Below are positions 1,903 to 17,659 of a DNA stretch of 25,320 bases, one piece after another. Position numbers and translations under genes: made by a program. Position 1 is the first letter of the stretch, and every line of letters begins with the position of its first letter. The notes under the pieces were generated by a model, which saw nothing but the letters and a program-made list of their open reading frames with translations, was not told the DNA's origin and made no database searches. This DNA is from a virus, in IMG/VR virus record IMGVR_UViG_3300042867_000217, positions 1 to 25,320 of that record; one strand, 5' to 3'.

Positions 1903-2270
1903 AAACCTTTGTCCTAGTCCACCACCAAGCCCGTTTAAACGCTCTGGAAGCCGTTAAAAACGCACCGGATGGGTGGATGGTGCAGGTCAAGGAAAAAACC
2001 CGTTCAATCGAGGCAAACGCGAGATATTGGGGCAATGGAATCTTGGCTCAGATCGCCGATCAAGTCGTGATGAACGGGAGGAAATACAGCGCCGAGGTTT
2101 GGCATGAGCAGTTCAAACAGTTGTTTCTCGGGGTGGAGGAACTGCCAAGCGGTCAGGTGATTGGCAAAAGTAGCGCCAAGCTGGGGGTGAAGGCGTTTTC
2201 AGAATTTACCGAGCAGGTGGAGTCGTATGCTGTTACTTCGCTTGGTGTTGTTTTTAAGGATGGGCCATGA
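1899..2270 (+). CDS. ninB: NinB family recombination protein (lambda Orf-like)
   Basis: The 123-residue product starts at GTG 1899 in a GTGA overlap with the previous stop. Family-like features are the segment K-T-R-S-I-E-A-N-A-R-Y-W (34-44), the helix I-A-D-Q-V-V-M-N-G-R-K-Y-S-A-E-V-W-H-E-Q-F-K (52-73) and L-G-V-E-E-L-P-S-G at about 77-85. Lambda NinB (Orf) is a recombination mediator that binds single-stranded DNA and SSB and helps load the annealing protein, replacing RecFOR. The protein is slightly shorter than lambda Orf (about 146 residues). It overlaps ninG by ATGA, as expected for a nin-type recombination pair. The family call is confident from pattern and context. Confidence 0.88.
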   Translation: MKTFVLVHHQARLNALEAVKNAPDGWMVQVKEKTRSIEANARYWGNGILAQIADQVVMNGRKYSAEVWHEQFKQLFLGVEELPSGQVIGKSSAKLGVKAFSEFTEQVESYAVTSLGVVFKDGP

Positions 2271-2827
2271 AGCCCAAAAAGTGCAAGCATTGCGGCGAGA
2301 CATTCACCCCCTCAAGGTCTATGCAACAGGCTTGCTCCATCTTTTGCGCTGTTGCTTTGGTGGAAAAGCTAAACCAGAAACGTGCGGCAAAGTCTGAGCG
2401 CCAGGACAAGAAGGCGGTGCGGGAAAAGCTGGACGCGATGAAAACAAAGCCTGAGTTGCTGAAACTCGCGCAAATAGCGTTCAACTCCTTTATCAGGGCT
2501 AGGGATGCAGACAAACCCTGTATCTGTTGCGGCAAACCATTGAACACAGGCCCAAACAGCTTTGATGCAGGCCACTACCGTTCGGTGGGTTCAGCGCCAC
2601 ACCTGCGCTTTGTGGAAAACAACGTACACGGGCAAACCAAGTATTGCAACAACCATTTGGGCGGGAACCATGTCGAGTACCGTAAGGGCTTGATTGAGCG
2701 CATAGGCTTAGAAGCTGTCGAGGCACTAGAGGCCGACCAAACCCCAAGGAAATACACGCATGACGAACTGAGGGACTTGGCCGCAAGCTATCGGGCTAAG
2801 TTGAGAGAGCTAAAAAAAGGGCAATAA
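2267..2827 (+). CDS. ninG: NinG family recombination endonuclease (lambda Rap-like)
   Basis: The 186-residue product begins with ATGA overlapping ninB. The N-terminal zinc-finger-like motif is C6-x2-C9 ... C23-x3-C27. A basic helical linker follows (about 36-75). The C-terminal HNH-like core includes C85-I-C87-C88, D100-A-G-H103, N118/N119-x-H121, C127, H130 and N134, closing with a Lys/Arg-rich helix. Lambda NinG (Rap) is a structure-specific nuclease that cleaves D-loops and Holliday junctions. All expected metal-binding residues appear intact. It is the last gene of the left operon and is followed by a promoter and a 275-base non-coding stretch. Confidence 0.92.
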   Translation: MKPKKCKHCGETFTPSRSMQQACSIFCAVALVEKLNQKRAAKSERQDKKAVREKLDAMKTKPELLKLAQIAFNSFIRARDADKPCICCGKPLNTGPNSFDAGHYRSVGSAPHLRFVENNVHGQTKYCNNHLGGNHVEYRKGLIERIGLEAVEALEADQTPRKYTHDELRDLAASYRAKLRELKKGQ

Positions 2828-2829
2828 TT

Positions 2830-2859
2830 TTGCACAAGAGCGCAAAACTTTGTTATACT
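2830..2859 (+). promoter_or_regulatory. sigma70-like promoter upstream of a structured leader RNA
   Basis: A -35 box TTGCAC (2830-2835) and a -10 box TATACT (2854-2859) are separated by 18 bp, immediately after the ninG stop. The predicted start (about 2866) coincides with the first base of a long inverted repeat, so the transcript would begin with its own terminal helix. The position after ninG and before packaging genes matches the place of the lambda late promoter. A Q-type regulator gene is not visible. Confidence 0.6.
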
Positions 2860-2865
2860 TAAGCA

Positions 2866-3003
2866 CCGTCAAGAATGAAGATTGGCAGGTATGAAGTCGG
2901 TCAGTGGAAGTCTCTGGTGTCACTTGTTGCAACAACACACTAAACGACCTTAATCCCGATGCTCTGTGCGGATCGCAACCGCAACAATCTTCATCCTTGA
3001 CGG
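2866..3003 (+). ncRNA. Candidate structured non-coding RNA or regulatory leader closed by a 19-position helix
   Basis: Bases 2866-2884 are complementary to 2985-3003 at 18 of 19 positions (one A-C mismatch at 2874/2995). Inside, further pairings can be drawn: 2899-2902 with 2946-2949 (GGUC/GACC), 2903-2906 with 2921-2924 (AGUG/CACU), 2925-2928 with 2934-2937 (UGUU/AACA) and 2967-2971 with 2979-2983 (UGCGG/CCGCA, 7-nt loop). The result is a multibranched RNA of about 138 nt beginning at the predicted promoter start. A 20-codon frame (2891-2953) exists inside but its AGG is too close to the ATG to be a good SD. I do not recognise the family; a put-like antitermination leader or lambda 6S-like RNA are hypotheses only. 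Confidence 0.55.
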
Positions 3004-3046
3004 GTAAGGTGTTAGCGACCTTGCAACCTCAACCGACCTTATGGTC
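2945..3046 (+). repeat. Three CGACCTT repeats and downstream hairpins in the leader
   Basis: The heptamer CGACCTT occurs at 2945-2951, 3016-3022 and 3034-3040. The second lies in a hairpin (3004-3010 with 3018-3024, GUAAGGU/ACCUUGC with one G-U pair); the third is part of a GACC-UUAU-GGUC hairpin (3035-3046). The AAGGU arm at 3006-3010 can also pair with ACCUU at 3036-3040, so alternative folds are possible. The remainder of the gap (3047-3093) shows no clear element apart from the ribosome-binding site for the next gene. Confidence 0.5.
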
Positions 3047-3103
3047 AAGTGGGCAAACAAAAACAGTGCTTTATCTGGCCGTCAATCAACAAAAGGAGAA
3101 GAT

Positions 3104-3295
3104 ATGTTAGATATGTTTTTTGCAATTTTTTTTATTATGGTTATCGCTCTCAGCGTGGCCGCAGGTATGTACGCAAGCCGCCTGAAGCGCAGCCCAATTG
3201 GATGGGGATTAGTAGCGTTCTTTTTAAGCCCTTTTGTGGCGTTCTTGTTCTTGTTAGCCTTGGGTGAGGTTAAGTCAAAAGAGGTGCAACGATGA
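3104..3295 (+). CDS. Small two-helix membrane protein
   Basis: The 63-residue product starts at ATG 3104, preceded by AAGGAGAAGAT, the best SD in the area; longer in-frame starts at 3041 are rejected. The sequence has two hydrophobic helices (about residues 3-24 and 33-54) separated by a short basic turn (S-R-L-K-R-S-P), with a charged C-terminus. Small size and two helices would also suit a holin or an inner-membrane exclusion protein, but the lysis-gene neighbourhood is elsewhere and no family is recognised. Its stop overlaps the next start (ATGA 3292-3295). Confidence 0.7.
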   Translation: MLDMFFAIFFIMVIALSVAAGMYASRLKRSPIGWGLVAFFLSPFVAFLFLLALGEVKSKEVQR

Positions 3296-3471
3296 GCGAA
3301 GAGGCAGACGTCTGGATAAACTGGACTGGTGACGCTTGCCCTGTCCCTCAAGACACAATGGTCGAGGTGATTTTGCGGGATGGTGAGCAAGCCAAAGACA
3401 CTGCTGATTGCTTTTACTGGACTGATTGCGCTAGAGGCAAAGACGTCATTGGATACCGAGTAATCAAATGA
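3292..3471 (+). CDS. 59-residue phage protein of the 'ECPV-VEV-YRV' type
   Basis: This gene starts with an ATGA overlap and a good SD (GAGGTG, 5 bases upstream) and encodes 59 residues. The pattern W-I-N-W-T-G-D-A-C-P-V-P, then V-E-V-I-L-R-D-G, then D-x-x-G-Y-R-V-I-K matches a small beta-rich family widespread in tailed phages and prophages with no assigned function. The acidic N-terminus and Cys/Trp-rich middle are visible. Its last codons overlap the -35 region of the next promoter. Confidence 0.75.
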   Translation: MSEEADVWINWTGDACPVPQDTMVEVILRDGEQAKDTADCFYWTDCARGKDVIGYRVIK

Positions 3472-3511
3472 CCCTAAATAACAAAACCTAATATAATTCG
3501 CACATCTTAGG
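3468..3511 (+). promoter_or_regulatory. Promoter with flanking repeats upstream of terS
   Basis: A perfect TATAAT (3492-3497) has a partial -35 (ATGACC, 3468-3473, 4 of 6) at 18 bp. The -10 box is flanked by the inverted repeat CCTAA (3487-3491) and TTAGG (3507-3511), with an additional direct copy CCTAA at 3473-3477, 14 bp upstream. This layout could be a binding site for a regulator of packaging and structural genes. Such short repeats can occur by chance. Confidence 0.55.
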
Positions 3512-3530
3512 CTAACCCGAGGATATGAGA

Positions 3531-3953
3531 ATGTTCAATCAAGACAAAGCTGACGAAATCTGCATCATGCTAGAGGATGGTGCTAGCCTACGCAAAGCCG
3601 CTGAATCAGTAGGCGAATCAGCTAGAACCGTACTCAATTGGACTAAATCCAATCCTGAGTTCCTTACACAATACACGCGAAGCCGTGAAATTGGCTATTT
3701 GCAATTGGCCGATTCCATCCTCAATATCGCTGATGAAACAGAGGTAGAGGCTAAATATGATGGTGACGATGTACGCCTAGACCTCAGTGCTACGGCTGTG
3801 GCTCGAAACCGTCTCAGGGTGGATACACGCAAGTGGATGCTGTCCAAGATGTTGCCCAAAATCTACGGGGACAAGTTAGAGCTTTCTGGCGACCAACAAA
3901 ACCCATTGCTGATTGGCTCCATTAAGCGGGTCATCGTAGACCCTAAAAAGTAA
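3531..3953 (+). CDS. terS: Terminase small subunit
   Basis: The small terminase recognises phage DNA and regulates the packaging motor. The 140-residue product starts at ATG 3531, 8 bases after the GAGG at 3519-3522; an ATG at 3525 is in frame but only 2 bases from that SD. The N-terminus has a helix-turn-helix (D-E-I-C-I-M-L-E-D-G-A-S-L-R-K-A-A ... R-T-V-L-N-W). The middle is helical, for oligomerisation, and the C-terminal part contains K-M-L-P-K-I-Y-G-D-K, a sequence characteristic of Sf6-type and related small terminases. The C-terminal tail is basic. The stop shares a base with the terL start (TAATG). Confidence 0.88.
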   Translation: MFNQDKADEICIMLEDGASLRKAAESVGESARTVLNWTKSNPEFLTQYTRSREIGYLQLADSILNIADETEVEAKYDGDDVRLDLSATAVARNRLRVDTRKWMLSKMLPKIYGDKLELSGDQQNPLLIGSIKRVIVDPKK

Positions 3954-5311
3954 TGCAAGCACTGGAAATCGCAACCCCTAGATGGGCTGCTGATTATTTT
4001 GAGCCTGCACGGTACAAATTTGCATACGGTGGCCGTGGCTCTGGAAAGTCGCACTTTTTTGGCGAATACATCATTGAGGCCCACGCCATTGACCAGAATG
4101 AAAGTACTGTATGTGTGCGCCAAGTGCAAAAGTCGCTAGATCAGTCCGTAAAAAAGCTGCTTGAGCAAAAGATTGAAAAGCTAAACGCTGGCTATTACTT
4201 TGAAGTTCAAGACGCCAAGATTTTATCGACCAATGGCACTGGAATCATTACGTTCCAAGGTATGCAGAACCACACGGCTGATTCTGTTAAGTCGCTTGAG
4301 GGCTACAAACGTGCTTGGGTAGAGGAAGCGCAAACTTTAAGCGGTTACAGCCTTGAGTTATTGCGCCCGACAATCCGCATCCCAGATTCTGAGCTTTTGT
4401 TTAGCTGGAACCCCAGATACAAAACTGACCCCGTAGATGTGTTTTTCCGCGGCAAGAACAAGCCTCAAAACGCTATTGGGCGCATGGTCAATTGGCGTGA
4501 TAACCCTTGGTTCCCTGATGTGCTTCGGCAAGAGATGGAGCAGGATTACAGAACCGACCCAGATAGAGCCGCCCATATTTGGGAGGGGGCTTATGGCTCG
4601 TCACAAGGCGCTATTCTTGCTCGATGGGTGGGGAAGGCTGAGAGAGATAAGCGCATCCATAACGATGTGGTGTATGACCCTGATGGGATGCCTATTGAGG
4701 TATCGGCTGACTTAGGTTTTAGGGACACAGCATCATTTTGGTATTGGCAACGTGTGCCAGGCGGTGTGAACGTCCTGAAATACGATGGGGATAACGGGCT
4801 AGACGCTGATGAGTGGATTCCCCGCATCCAAGACAATATAAGGCAGCTAGGGGCCAAGCAAGTGGGCAAGGTGTGGCTACCCCACGACTCAAGGGCTAAG
4901 ACCTTCCAATCGCGCCATACAACGATGGAGCGGTTCATCACGGCTTTCGGGGCTAGTTATGTGGGCTTAGTGCCTCAGTCCAAGAAGCAAGATCAGATCA
5001 GCGCGGCCCGTGAGGTGATAGATAGGTGCGCCTTTAACGCTCAACTGTGCGAGGCTGGATTAGACGGCTTAAGGGCATGGGAGTTTCTGTATTCTGAGGA
5101 TAATGGCGTTTTTAGCCGTGAACCAAACCACAATTGGGCGTCCCATCCGTCCGATGCGTTTGCTTACGGCTGTCAGGTAATGCAGGAACATAAGCCCAAA
5201 ATTGACGAAAAAATGGACAAATGGGCCATAAAAGGGCAAAATAATCGCATTATTACGGCTCCACTGGACGACCTGTGGAAAGAATCCCCCCGAAGGAATG
5301 AGCGCATATGA
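3953..5311 (+). CDS. terL: Terminase large subunit (ATPase-nuclease)
   Basis: The large terminase pumps DNA into the prohead and cuts it. The 452-residue product resembles the PBSX/Terminase_3 group. Walker A is GGRGSGKS (26-33), the Walker B/catalytic segment R-A-W-V-E-E-A-Q (120-127) and the coupling motif F-S-W-N-P (150-154). The RNase H-like nuclease has three candidate metal ligands: D253 (in A-D-L-G), D312 (in H-D-S-R) and D401 (in H-P-S-D-A). Length is normal and all motifs are intact. The start overlaps the terS stop by one base; the stop overlaps the next start by ATGA. Confidence 0.96.
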   Translation: MQALEIATPRWAADYFEPARYKFAYGGRGSGKSHFFGEYIIEAHAIDQNESTVCVRQVQKSLDQSVKKLLEQKIEKLNAGYYFEVQDAKILSTNGTGIITFQGMQNHTADSVKSLEGYKRAWVEEAQTLSGYSLELLRPTIRIPDSELLFSWNPRYKTDPVDVFFRGKNKPQNAIGRMVNWRDNPWFPDVLRQEMEQDYRTDPDRAAHIWEGAYGSSQGAILARWVGKAERDKRIHNDVVYDPDGMPIEVSADLGFRDTASFWYWQRVPGGVNVLKYDGDNGLDADEWIPRIQDNIRQLGAKQVGKVWLPHDSRAKTFQSRHTTMERFITAFGASYVGLVPQSKKQDQISAAREVIDRCAFNAQLCEAGLDGLRAWEFLYSEDNGVFSREPNHNWASHPSDAFAYGCQVMQEHKPKIDEKMDKWAIKGQNNRIITAPLDDLWKESPRRNERI

Positions 5312-5490: not shown

Positions 5491-7730
5491 AAAAGATGAA
5501 TCCTATTGCCGAAGCGAAACGCTGGAAGAACGAACTCAAGCAAGCCAAGCGAGAGGACGAAGCATGGTGCAAGCGCGGTAAAAAGATCGTCAAGCGGTAT
5601 CGGGACGACCGCACACAGTCATTCACCTCTAAGCGTTACAACGTCCTTTGGTCAAACATACAGACCATGCTCCCCGCTTTGTATGGCCGCACACCTCGCG
5701 CACAGGTGGAACGCCGCTGGAAGGACAAAGACCCAGTAGCACGAACAGCCTCGACCATTCTGGAACGTGCGCTCCAATACGAGATTGACAACAATTCAGA
5801 CTTCGACCATTCCATCAAGTTGGCGGTGATGGATCGCCTATTGCCTGGTCGCGGTGTGGCATGGGTTCGATTTGAGTCTAAGAGCGTGGACATTATCCAA
5901 TCGTCCCCAATGGAAAGCCCTGAGGGTGAATACTCGGACGAAGCCCAACAGCCTAGCTATGGCGAGCAAACCCCTGAGATGAACGTAGAAACCACACCTG
6001 TGGACTATGTTTACTGGGAGGATTTCCGCTGCACCCCTGCCCGAACATGGGAGGAAGTGACTTGGTGCGCTCGCCGTGTTTACATGAGCAAAGAGGAAGT
6101 CGTTAAGCGTTTCGGTGAGGAATTCAAAGACATCAACCTGACCCACGTCCCCCAAGGTCTTGACGATATGCTCAAGTCGGGATTCAGCAAATCAGACGCT
6201 GAAGCCATGAAAAAGGCAGAGATTTGGGAGATTTGGGACAAGACCAGCGAGTGTGTCTATTGGGTGGCAGAGGGTGAGGATAAGCTGCTCGACCACAAGA
6301 ACGACCCGTACGGCCTGGACAACTTTTGGCCTTTGCCCCGTCCTTTGTTCGCTACTCAGACGACAGAAACCCTTGTGCCTGTTCCTGACTACGTTCTCTA
6401 CCAAGACCAAGCGGACGAGATCGATAAGCTGACCAACCGCATTTCGTTGCTGATTGAAGCGGTCAAGGTGGTGGGTGTGTATGACGCCTCCCAAGCGGGT
6501 ATTCAGCGGATGCTGAACGAGGGATTCGACAACCAGCTTATCCCCGTAGATTCATGGGCAGCTTTCTCTGAAAAAGGCGGCGTTAAGGGCACGATTGACT
6601 TTCTGCCACTAGATCAGACCATCCAAGCATTGAACCAATGCTATCAAGCCCGTGAACAGGCTAAACAGGTGGTCTATGACGTTACCGGACTGAGCGACAT
6701 CATTCGTGGCTCAAGCGTGGCCTCTGAGACTGCTACTGCCCAACAGATCAAGGGCCAGTATGCCTCTATGCGCCTGAAGCGTATGCAGATGGATGTGGCC
6801 GTGTTCGCCTCTGAATTGCTGCGGATTAAGGCGCAATTGATGTGCGACCTGTATTCCCCTGAGAACCTGATTCAGATGTCGGGGATTATGGGCACGGATG
6901 ACGCACCTTACGCCGAGCAAGCCATTCAGTTGATGAAGTCTGAACCAGCCCGTTCATTCCGCATTGAAGTGGCGTCTGATAGCTTGGTCGAGATGGACGA
7001 ACAGGCCGAGAAAGCCTCTAGAACCGAGTTCATGCAAGCGTTCGGCACGACTATGCGTGATGCCCTGCCAATGGCTCAACAAGTGCCTGAAATGGCCCCG
7101 CTGATTGGTGAGGTCTTGCAGTTTGTGGTGAGAACCTTCAAGGGTGGCCGTTCGCTTGAATCGGCTCTGGAGACAACCATCGAAAAGATGAACGCACCTA
7201 AAGAGCCTCAAGGCCCATCGCCTGAACAGCAACAAGCCGAAGCCATGCAACAGATGGAACAGGCCAAGATGCAACAGACCATGCAAGCTGAACAGATGAA
7301 GCTCCAAAGCGCGCAACAAATGGAGCAAATGAAAGCCCAAACGACTGCCCAGGTTGAGCAATTCAAGGCTGAACAGGCCATGATGTTGGAGCAAATGAAG
7401 CAACAGGCCGAGACTGAGCGCCAGGCTTACAAAGCCCAATTGGATGCCCAGACAAAGTTGCAGATCGCTGAGATGCAGACCCAAGCCCAAATGAAGCCCG
7501 TCAACCAGTTCACCGTGGATTCAGGTGGCAAGTTTGACGAGATCGCTGAGACACTGAGCCAATCCGCTGCCCAACAAGGTGCTGGTATCGCCGAAGCCGT
7601 CAATACATTGGCCCAAGTCTCTGCCTCACTGGTAGGCGCTGTGGACGAAATGAAACGACCCAAGCGCCGTGTGCTAGAGCGTGACCCGATAACCGGACGC
7701 GCTATTGGTGCTGTTGAGATTACTGACTAA
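5487..7730 (+). CDS. Portal protein with long coiled-coil C-terminus
   Basis: The portal is the dodecameric ring through which DNA enters and leaves. The start at 5487 (ATGA overlap with the previous stop) gives 747 residues; an ATG at 5475 would add four. Portal-like signatures (numbered from 5475) are W-E-D-F-R-C-T-P-A-R near 181-190 and D-V-T-G-L-S-D-I-I-R-G-S-S ... E-T-A-T-A-Q-Q-I-K-G-Q (402-428), a motif shared by many podovirus portals. Residues about 583-672 are a near-continuous Gln/Met/Ala coiled coil, comparable to the helical barrel of the P22 portal. The C-terminus has R-D-P-I-T-G-R-A-I-G-A-V-E, also common in this family. Confidence 0.9.
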   Translation: MKKMNPIAEAKRWKNELKQAKREDEAWCKRGKKIVKRYRDDRTQSFTSKRYNVLWSNIQTMLPALYGRTPRAQVERRWKDKDPVARTASTILERALQYEIDNNSDFDHSIKLAVMDRLLPGRGVAWVRFESKSVDIIQSSPMESPEGEYSDEAQQPSYGEQTPEMNVETTPVDYVYWEDFRCTPARTWEEVTWCARRVYMSKEEVVKRFGEEFKDINLTHVPQGLDDMLKSGFSKSDAEAMKKAEIWEIWDKTSECVYWVAEGEDKLLDHKNDPYGLDNFWPLPRPLFATQTTETLVPVPDYVLYQDQADEIDKLTNRISLLIEAVKVVGVYDASQAGIQRMLNEGFDNQLIPVDSWAAFSEKGGVKGTIDFLPLDQTIQALNQCYQAREQAKQVVYDVTGLSDIIRGSSVASETATAQQIKGQYASMRLKRMQMDVAVFASELLRIKAQLMCDLYSPENLIQMSGIMGTDDAPYAEQAIQLMKSEPARSFRIEVASDSLVEMDEQAEKASRTEFMQAFGTTMRDALPMAQQVPEMAPLIGEVLQFVVRTFKGGRSLESALETTIEKMNAPKEPQGPSPEQQQAEAMQQMEQAKMQQTMQAEQMKLQSAQQMEQMKAQTTAQVEQFKAEQAMMLEQMKQQAETERQAYKAQLDAQTKLQIAEMQTQAQMKPVNQFTVDSGGKFDEIAETLSQSAAQQGAGIAEAVNTLAQVSASLVGAVDEMKRPKRRVLERDPITGRAIGAVEITD

Positions 7731-16227: not shown

Positions 16228-17126
16228 TGAACGCCCTTAAACTGGTTCAGCAGGTAGTCGATGAATTGGCCTTGTTCAGGCCTACAACTCTGATCGGTAC
16301 GCAAGACCCTCAGACACGTCAACTCATGGCCTTGTTGAACCGTTTAGGGGCTGACATTACGACTCAGACCGAATGGCAACGGCTGAACAAGGAATATCTG
16401 GTCGTTACCAACTCGTTTACCTTGACGGGCACGGTAACTATCGGCTCCAAGGTCATTACAGACTTGCCAACAACCACGGCAATCACTGACCAATACACGA
16501 TTATCGGAACTGGAATCCAACCCTTTGCCCAAGTGGTGACTGTCAATAATTTGACAGAGATCACGATGGACATGGAAGCTGAGCAATCTGGCGCTGTTGA
16601 GCTTCAATTCTCCCAAAACAAGTTTGACCTTCCACCCGATTGGGAAAGGCAAATCAATTCCACGGAATGGAACAGATCGCAAAGATGGAGCCTTCAGGGT
16701 CCCAAGTCATCACAGGAATGGCAGACCTTTAAAAGCGGCATCGTATCGGCTGGACCTCGGCAACGATTCCGTATTTTGGGCAACCAGCTTTGCCTGAATC
16801 CATCGCCTCCCGACAATCAAACTCTATCCTTTGAATACATTTCAAATGGTTGGGTGAACGGCGCTGACGGCACACCAAAAACAGAAATTACTGCGGACAC
16901 AGATACGTTTGTGTTTTCTAATTCGCTGTTAATCACTGGTTTAAAAGCACATTGGCTTACCTCAAAAGGCCTAGACGCCACCTTTGCTCTGGGTGAGTTC
17001 CGTTACTTGCTGGAAAATGAAAAGTCCACAGACAAAGGAGCGCCAACATTGTCAACTAGTCAACAATTTGGCAACGTCCTTATGTCTGAAAATAATGTCG
17101 TTGACGGCAATTATCCGGCCACTTAA
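16224..17126 (+). CDS. Head-tail adaptor protein (SU10-adaptor/gp4-like)
   Basis: The start at 16224 overlaps the preceding stop (ATGATG, so 16227 is also possible). The 300-residue product has an N-terminal helical bundle (L-V-Q-Q-V-V-D-E-L, L-M-A-L-L-N-R-L-G-A-D-I), a beta insert (I-G-S-K-V-I-T-D-L, about 65-130), and the segment P-P-D-W-E-R-Q-I-N-S-T-E-W-N-R-S-Q-R-W-S-L-Q-G-P-K followed by L-C-L-N-P-S-P-P-D. These are features of podovirus adaptor proteins that dock below the portal, such as that of phage SU10. The stop shares TTAA with the convergent HNH gene. Confidence 0.7.
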   Translation: MMNALKLVQQVVDELALFRPTTLIGTQDPQTRQLMALLNRLGADITTQTEWQRLNKEYLVVTNSFTLTGTVTIGSKVITDLPTTTAITDQYTIIGTGIQPFAQVVTVNNLTEITMDMEAEQSGAVELQFSQNKFDLPPDWERQINSTEWNRSQRWSLQGPKSSQEWQTFKSGIVSAGPRQRFRILGNQLCLNPSPPDNQTLSFEYISNGWVNGADGTPKTEITADTDTFVFSNSLLITGLKAHWLTSKGLDATFALGEFRYLLENEKSTDKGAPTLSTSQQFGNVLMSENNVVDGNYPAT

Positions 17127-17659
17127 GGTGTGACCCAATGCCAAGCACGACCAACGCACACACTTCTTACCTGATCGAAGCTCAGGCCCAGTTGGGCGGC
17201 AATGATTTTGTAAGTCGTTCCGTGAGCGCGAAGGCGTTTGACTTGCAATGCTTGTTCTTGCGTCATTTTGGCGTTTGGGTTCTTAAGGCCTCTATTGCTT
17301 CGACCATGTTTCACCATGTCTTGCATATTGCCTTGGTGCGTGTCGTAACGCAGGTTAGAGGCTTGGTTGTTGGCGGGGTTTCCGTCTTTATGGCACACCT
17401 CAAGACCTTTAAGGCGTGGGCCAAGAAAAGCCTCTGCAACGATCAAATGGATGCGTTTTTTAATGGGCTTGCTATCTTTGCTAAGACCAACCGACCATCG
17501 CCCTTGGCTGTCAGTGCTATGGCCCAAAACACGGCCAACAAGTTTGCGCGTTCCGTGGGTTTTGTCTGGGATAATACGGTCAAGGCTTCTTATGGTTCCA
17601 AGGTTGGAAACTTCATAAAGACCAACGTAGCCGGAAACAGGTTTCCAGATTTCTTGCAT
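17123..17659 (-). CDS. HNH homing endonuclease (NUMOD4-HNH_3-HTH)
   Basis: This 178-residue leftward gene starts after AGAGGT. Residues 3-26 (E-I-W-K-P-V-S-G-Y-V-G-L-Y-E-V-S-N-L-G) form a NUMOD4 DNA-binding motif. The HNH core has H71, then C89-H90-K-D-G93, N97-N98 and N102-L-R. Residues about 125-175 form a C-terminal HTH (L-T-type K-M-T-Q-E-Q-A ... I-I-A-A-Q-L-G-L-S-F-D-Q-V). Such free-standing homing endonucleases spread between phage genomes by cutting alleles that lack them. The gene opposes its neighbours; its stop overlaps the adaptor stop at TTAA. It differs in family and origin from the one at 11844-12353. Confidence 0.93.
   Translation of the reverse strand: MQEIWKPVSGYVGLYEVSNLGTIRSLDRIIPDKTHGTRKLVGRVLGHSTDSQGRWSVGLSKDSKPIKKRIHLIVAEAFLGPRLKGLEVCHKDGNPANNQASNLRYDTHQGNMQDMVKHGRSNRGLKNPNAKMTQEQALQVKRLRAHGTTYKIIAAQLGLSFDQVRSVCVGRAWHWVTP

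Follow-up and report, generated by a model that had tools for sequence, protein, structure and literature searches.

Genomic setting of the element

The window, that is, the whole analysed stretch of 25,320 bases of a virus record, carries a nin-type gene block that ends with ninB and ninG and is followed by a gap of 276 nt, two small ORFs, terS, terL, and the portal gene. The element described here lies in the gap, between ninG and a small ORF and about 0.5 kb upstream of terS (Table 1). A Pfam search with the product of the neighbouring small gene gave a holin-like match far below the cut-off. The promoter and leader of terS (window positions 3468-3524) include the sequence TATAATT...AACCCGAGG, which is common to the related loci L101, L102, L106, and L108 and is partly present in L107. 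Two features lie further downstream. An HNH endonuclease gene at 17123-17659 is located on the opposite strand (-) within the structural gene region and is probably a homing-type insertion, and the local fold with the most extreme z-score in the first 8 kb (-4.2) lies within the portal gene, at 5951-6090 (+).

Table 1. Positions of the parts of the RNA element and of neighbouring features in the window
Feature	Position	Strand	Basis or remark
ninG	2267..2827	+	upstream neighbour; PF05766 E 4.9e-57, phrog_171
Imperfect dyad TTTTGCAC-AAGA-GCGCAAAA	2829..2848	.	overlaps the -35; read directly from the sequence
Sigma70-type promoter TGCACA-17-TATACT, extended -10 (TGTTATACT)	2831..2859	+	consensus scan; 9/12 hexamer matches, TG before the -10
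P1 closing helix, 5' arm	2866..2884	+	pairs with 2985-3003; covariation in relatives
Conserved core, 5' half GATTGGCAGGTATGAAGTCGGTCA	2880..2903	+	P2 5' = 2885-2889, P3 5' = 2896-2900; near-invariant in 22 relatives
Conserved core, 3' half AATCCCGATGCTCTGT	2952..2967	+	P3 3' = 2956-2960, P2 3' = 2963-2967; near-invariant in 22 relatives
P4 hairpin GCGG-ATCGCAA-CCGC, conserved TCGC loop	2968..2982	+	double changes for 4/4 pairs among relatives, with 100% pairing
P1 closing helix, 3' arm	2985..3003	+	pairs with 2866-2884; covariation in relatives
GTTAGCG-loop hairpin GTAAGGTGTTAGCGACCTTGC	3004..3024	+	family piece 3' of the closing helix
Small hairpin GACC-TTAT-GGTC	3035..3046	+	predicted fold only
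TGCTTTAT element	3067..3074	+	family piece recurring 3' of modules
Small hydrophobic-protein gene	3104..3295	+	downstream neighbour; phrog_25625 (unknown function) E 7e-11
Promoter before terS, separate from that of the RNA	3468..3497	+	10/12 hexamer matches
terS, small terminase subunit	3525..3953	+	phrog_1482 E 5.9e-30
terL, large terminase subunit	3953..5311	+	phrog_3717 E 1.3e-51, phrog_2

The initial annotation had described an inverted repeat in the gap, with arms of 19 nt, 18 of which are matched, at a distance of 100 nt. The repeat lies at exactly the positions given for it and is the longest near-perfect pair of the window. When the whole 25-kb window was subjected to 200 rounds of dinucleotide shuffling, an equally good helix arose in 6 of them (3%), whereas 2000 shuffles of the 276-nt gap produced none. 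The region had been described as not filled by a good ORF, and the 68-aa ORF inside the element has no protein family match. No tRNA was found inside the element, and the gap contains no terminator-like site between the RNA and the next ORF.

A sigma70-like promoter had been proposed as well. The site is present and ends 6 nt before the closing helix, and promoter-like sites with scores of at least 9 were found upstream of 10% of the first modules of the relatives described below, compared with 1.6% of random positions. The bare consensus match, however, is at chance level, with 4 matches of such quality found and 2.7 expected. The predicted transcription start is A2865 or C2866. The imperfect dyad that overlaps the -35 is a possible regulator site, judged from its symmetry.

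Relatives of the element

Searches with blastn and nhmmer among phages related by terL or terS retrieved only two contigs that are 100% identical to the window element and thus uninformative with regard to covariation. The exact closing-helix pattern GAAGATTG...CAATCTTC was discarded as a tool for finding relatives, since the matches listed were unrelated. In loci related by terL or terS, the region upstream of terS often includes noncoding stretches whose long closing helices differ greatly in sequence.

Relatives were recognized with the covariance model R2, which had the window copy as its only input and was run on loci that had been fetched for other reasons. It matched L320 with 79.9 bits (E 1.5e-17), L321 (E 3e-12), and L101 (E 1.4e-7), all E-values of this work being derived from a shortened calibration. 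In L320 and L321, the inner core is kept, and both arms of the closing helix are rewritten. A scan of IMG/VR with a core pattern yielded 28 contigs, all of which were confirmed by R2 with the exception of L427, a chance match in a coding region, and of copies of this phage. L427 and the matches in the genome contigs L439-L443 were set aside as chance pattern matches unsupported by the covariance models. R2 matches 27 sources, 26 of them besides the window, and the E-values of 1e-23 to 1e-12 for the relatives represent an independent test of membership. A further model, R3, matches the window with 131.2 bits (E 1.5e-39), the window being one of its 22 training rows; R1, R2, and R3 were all built from sequences found in the same analysis. 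Among annotated phages and plasmids, the RNA was found in one complete phage, the podovirus record MW202484.1, where it lies in an unannotated gap, and a 28-nt piece was found in phage PhiPLPE, while plasmids yielded no copy.

Covariation and strand of the RNA

For the analysis of covariation, 22 distinct sequences with 770 paired cells were aligned with plain MAFFT (alignment A4). Unguided application of RNAalifold to A4 recovered P1, P2, P3, an apical pairing, and P4. Pairing is possible in 99.2% of the paired cells. Changes on both sides were found in 20 of the 35 pairs, a value that was reached in none of 500 shuffles, and the number of cells with changes on both sides was 74, compared with 18.1 (sd 3.6) after shuffling and 4-10 when the alignment was slid. 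The initial annotation had suggested looking for compensatory changes in the terminal helix across related phages, and this check gave a strongly positive result, as 11 of the 17 pairs of P1 alone have changed on both sides. The internal hairpins covary too. The near-invariance of the 5' half of the core is partly due to selection because it also served as a search pattern. However, most of P1, the 3' half of the core AATCCCGATGCTCTGT, which was outside the first search pattern, and P4 were not used for the search, and their covariation is therefore no selection effect.

The window copy shares 57-71% identity with the other members and forms all of the pairs except two in the variable arm. Its P1 has a single mismatch, an A.C, and the corresponding position varies or is likewise mismatched in relatives (T.T, C.C). 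In L431, the closing helix is different at nearly all positions and is still perfectly paired.

The strand was decided by covariation. The folding z-score of the core is -3.9 on the + strand and -5.6 on the - strand, and folding energy alone would thus point to the wrong strand. The alignment contains 116 G-U cells and no A-C cell, and the pairing is specific for one strand (99.2% versus 84.2%). This shows that the RNA is read from the + strand, and the G-U/A-C count rules out an RNA from the minus strand, which the better folding energy had hinted at.

In the structure deduced from this comparison, P1 joins the ends of a main module. Enclosed by P1 are an arm that has a near-invariant core and is composed of P2, P3, and a variable hairpin, and also a separate P4 with a UCGC loop. 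The main module is followed by the GUUAGCG-loop hairpin and the UGCUUUAU element. Of 140 family modules, 16 are followed by the GTTAGCG-loop hairpin (0.4 expected), and 27 have TGCTTTAT at a distance of up to 330 nt (5.4 expected). The window thus has both accessory pieces, each of which is present in a minority of the family members. Their location 3' of the closing helix indicates that the RNA probably extends from about 2865 to 3080.

Modular architecture of the family

A sister module, CCAAC-ACGCATGGnGATTG ... CAGTCnCCAGCCGT-GTTGG, was first met in L008, L011, L099, and L113. A scan of IMG/VR with its pattern yielded at least 120 matches (L295-L413), often two or more per contig or in tandem. 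In its closing helix, as described by R1, 36 cells show changes on both sides, compared with 9.2 in shuffles, and no Rfam family matches it. A hairpin of L099 and L113, AAGTCCCAATGCTCTG, had also been considered as a homolog, but this was not convincing. R1 matches 13 of 83 relatives of this phage. R1 (CGCATGGnGATTG/CAGTCnCCAGCCG) did not match the window element even with the filters switched off, and the window element is thus not itself a sister module by this model. The two module types are linked by L436, in which a closing helix of the R1 type (CGCATGGTGATTG/CAGTCACCAGCCG) surrounds a core of the window type. Furthermore, modules of the sister type in L008, L084, and L108 are recognized by R3 as well. 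The similarity score of a first by-eye comparison of window and sister modules was at chance level, and the link is credible only via R2, L436, and R3. By these sequence comparisons, the window element belongs to a larger family of modular RNAs, in which it is a member with a single module and is linked to the sister module indirectly.

Tandem modules are present in L320, L321, L376, and L421, and the member in L320 (7661-8200) has three modules. In 13 of 152 clusters, tRNAs are located 70-400 nt downstream. Since the IMG/VR contigs are fragments, the numbers given for modules, tRNAs, and neighbours are minimum values. Evidence from the large tandem members can be transferred only in part to the window, which has a single module.

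Several other noncoding stretches upstream of terS were noticed during the inspection of these loci. In L105/L106 and in L108, the same closing helix GTGTTATCAAAGCG/CGCTTTGATAACAC and the same flanks surround very different interiors, which look as if RNA modules had been swapped. Pieces resembling tRNAs were seen in L101 (1410-1510), L108 (2040-2115), L106 (2697-2813), and L159 (2615-2707); they have sequences of the D-arm and the T-arm, such as GCAGGTTCGAGTCCTGC, without a proper anticodon arm, and ARAGORN called no tRNA in L106, L108, or L159. In L124, L125, L133, L141, L152, L170, and L172, long helices just upstream of terS are formed by GTAATCGTTCGTTCGG units that are repeated and inverted; these belong to another phage group and could be terminase-binding sites or structured RNA sites. 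Iodobacter phage PhiPLPE (NC_011142.1, about 46650-47453; L451, 1-800) has an unannotated noncoding stretch of about 800 nt with a terminator-like hairpin at its end, which has the exact 28-mer AAGCTGGAGATCAGTACCAGCCACCAAC in common with L320. R1 and R3 did not match this stretch. Judged from the sequence, it is likely to be another large RNA of the same kind, in a cultured phage.

Linkage to packaging genes

The linkage to terL was quantified for the 62 loci that have a detectable terL-like gene in the fetched stretch. In 57 of them, a module lies within 3 kb of terL, whereas 45.2 (sd 3.1) would be expected for random positions. Of these 57 modules, 56 are on the same strand as terL and 52 are located upstream of it; the median distance is 712 nt. 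The linked terminases are of several, very different kinds. In one case, L416, the module is placed after terL. Terminator-like sites follow the last module in 25 of 111 cases (9.9 expected). Promoter-like sites before the modules and terminator-like sites after them are both enriched, but, as far as crude scans can detect them, they are present in a minority. The link to packaging may merely reflect a shared location at the boundary between early and late genes.

Comparison with known phage RNAs

No family of Rfam 15 matches the window element or the loci of the relatives, and the models for GOLLD and ROOL did not match even at relaxed thresholds. The view of the initial annotation that the element is a structured RNA of an unrecognised family is therefore upheld by the covariation in the relatives together with the lack of an Rfam match. 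No published description of the family was found in a literature search that covered the openly accessible papers and a small part of the preprints, and an earlier description is possible. The RNA thus apparently represents an undescribed family within a known kind, that is, large or structured phage RNAs of unknown function.

The best known RNAs of this kind are GOLLD and ROOL. GOLLD is a large structured noncoding RNA of phages that is supported by covariation, is often found near tRNAs, and has an unknown function; its level has been reported to rise during phage lysis (PMC12286853). ROOL is found in phages and prophages near tRNA islands, and no protein partner is known for it (PMC12286853). 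The family described here resembles GOLLD in being phage-borne, structured, and supported by covariation, and in the proximity of some members to tRNAs. However, GOLLD is longer than 800 nt, whereas the window copy has about 140-220 nt, and the family here has its own plan, with repeated closing helices that end with GAUUG/CAGUC. It differs from ROOL in being smaller and in being built of tandem modules.

The initial annotation had drawn analogies to the 6S leader at the pR' promoter of phage lambda and to the put RNAs of HK022. The position at the early/late boundary behind ninG and the element's own promoter are indeed similar, and a terminator follows in some relatives. As identities, however, these analogies found no support. 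No Q family match was obtained among the small upstream genes in the annotated part of the window, the window has no terminator resembling tR', modules occur in tandem in the family, and terS has a separate promoter. HK022 put consists of two hairpins and has a length of about 65 nt, whereas in the window RNA a long closing helix surrounds a core with several arms. The cabRNA of staphylococcal phages is likewise a structured RNA linked to terminase genes. It is transcribed from within terS/terL, and its sequence is not conserved among phages (PMC10686824), whereas the window element lies outside of these genes and is thus not a cabRNA. With the pRNA of phi29 the element shares its nature as a structured phage RNA with paired ends and its association with packaging genes; in contrast to phi29, the phages here have ordinary TerS/TerL, and neither the window element nor its relatives match an Rfam family.

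Proposed mode of action and alternative explanations

On balance, it appears probable that the region from about 2865 to about 3080 (+) encodes a noncoding RNA of a modular phage family that acts in its folded form, most likely in trans. Its transcription would start from the promoter at 2831-2859, roughly when the late and packaging genes are switched on, and the folded RNA would display its conserved core, either for a protein partner or for further copies of itself. This is the mode of action that has been proposed for GOLLD and ROOL, for which a homo-oligomeric RNA cage is a defining trait, and the version of this phage would be a small single-module counterpart. Action in trans is favoured by the tandem modules, the tRNAs that sometimes follow, the varying distances, the placement after terL in L416, and the terS promoter of its own; the case for it is made up of architecture, tRNAs, and analogy only.

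The main alternative, a leader of the late or packaging operon that acts in cis, is rather unlikely but has to be taken seriously. Such a leader could render the polymerase resistant to termination, as do HK022 put and the EAR element, or it could control or stabilize the downstream mRNA. The orientation and upstream location relative to terL and the element's own promoter are in agreement with this explanation, as are the terminators after the last module, which recall the order pR'-6S-tR' of lambda, and the lack of an intrinsic terminator in the window, where the transcript can continue into 3104-3471. However, the window and several relatives have a separate promoter between the RNA and terS, and polymerases that start there skip the element. 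In addition, a lambda-like terminator is absent after the window element, and tandem copies, tRNAs behind the element, and the position in L416 fit poorly with a dedicated leader. A packaging RNA that works together with the terminase or the portal, in the manner of phi29 pRNA, would explain the repeated linkage to terL across unrelated terminases, but this linkage could mirror the early/late boundary only. Moreover, the terS/terL genes are ordinary, the sister module is absent from the majority of relatives that have such terminases (R1 matched 13 of 83), and no Rfam family matches, which would include a pRNA of the phi29 type if it is represented in the Rfam library. A packaging RNA of this type is therefore improbable.

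The RNA might instead act on a host defence that detects structured RNA of phages, either as its decoy or as its trigger. P1 is a nearly perfect double helix of about 20 bp, and an RNA from terS/terL of staphylococcal phages has been shown to switch on CBASS (PMC10686824). That RNA, however, originates from inside the terminase genes and its sequence is unconserved, whereas the window RNA is a separate and conserved noncoding element, and we regard a role in defence as very improbable. The least probable explanation is that the inverted repeat works as DNA, i.e., as a cos or pac site or as a binding site for terminase, and that RNA folding is incidental. Sites of this kind are often located upstream of terS, as is the element. 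Yet the 116 G-U cells against no A-C cell, the pairing on one strand only, and the covariation of the internal hairpins argue against a DNA site, and this explanation is hardly tenable.

Taken together, the evidence favours a folded RNA that most likely acts in trans. As a tentative and somewhat doubtful extension, it might be a third ornate phage RNA besides GOLLD and ROOL, which would assemble via its core, with itself, with terminase or portal, or with the translation machinery next to tRNAs of the phage, and which would have a direct role at the switch to packaging. If this were true, it would be the first ornate phage RNA that is tied to terminase genes across unrelated phages, and the window would contain the smallest form seen.

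The function of the large structured phage RNAs GOLLD and ROOL has been a long-standing puzzle, and the family described here is a separate one, with strong covariation, more than 100 phage contigs, a tie to packaging genes, and no counterpart in Rfam 15 for the loci searched. The window member is compact, with a single module, a length of about 140-220 nt, and a clear promoter, and thus, it is small enough to be transcribed, probed, solved, and deleted. With such a compact member, the role of these RNAs becomes testable.
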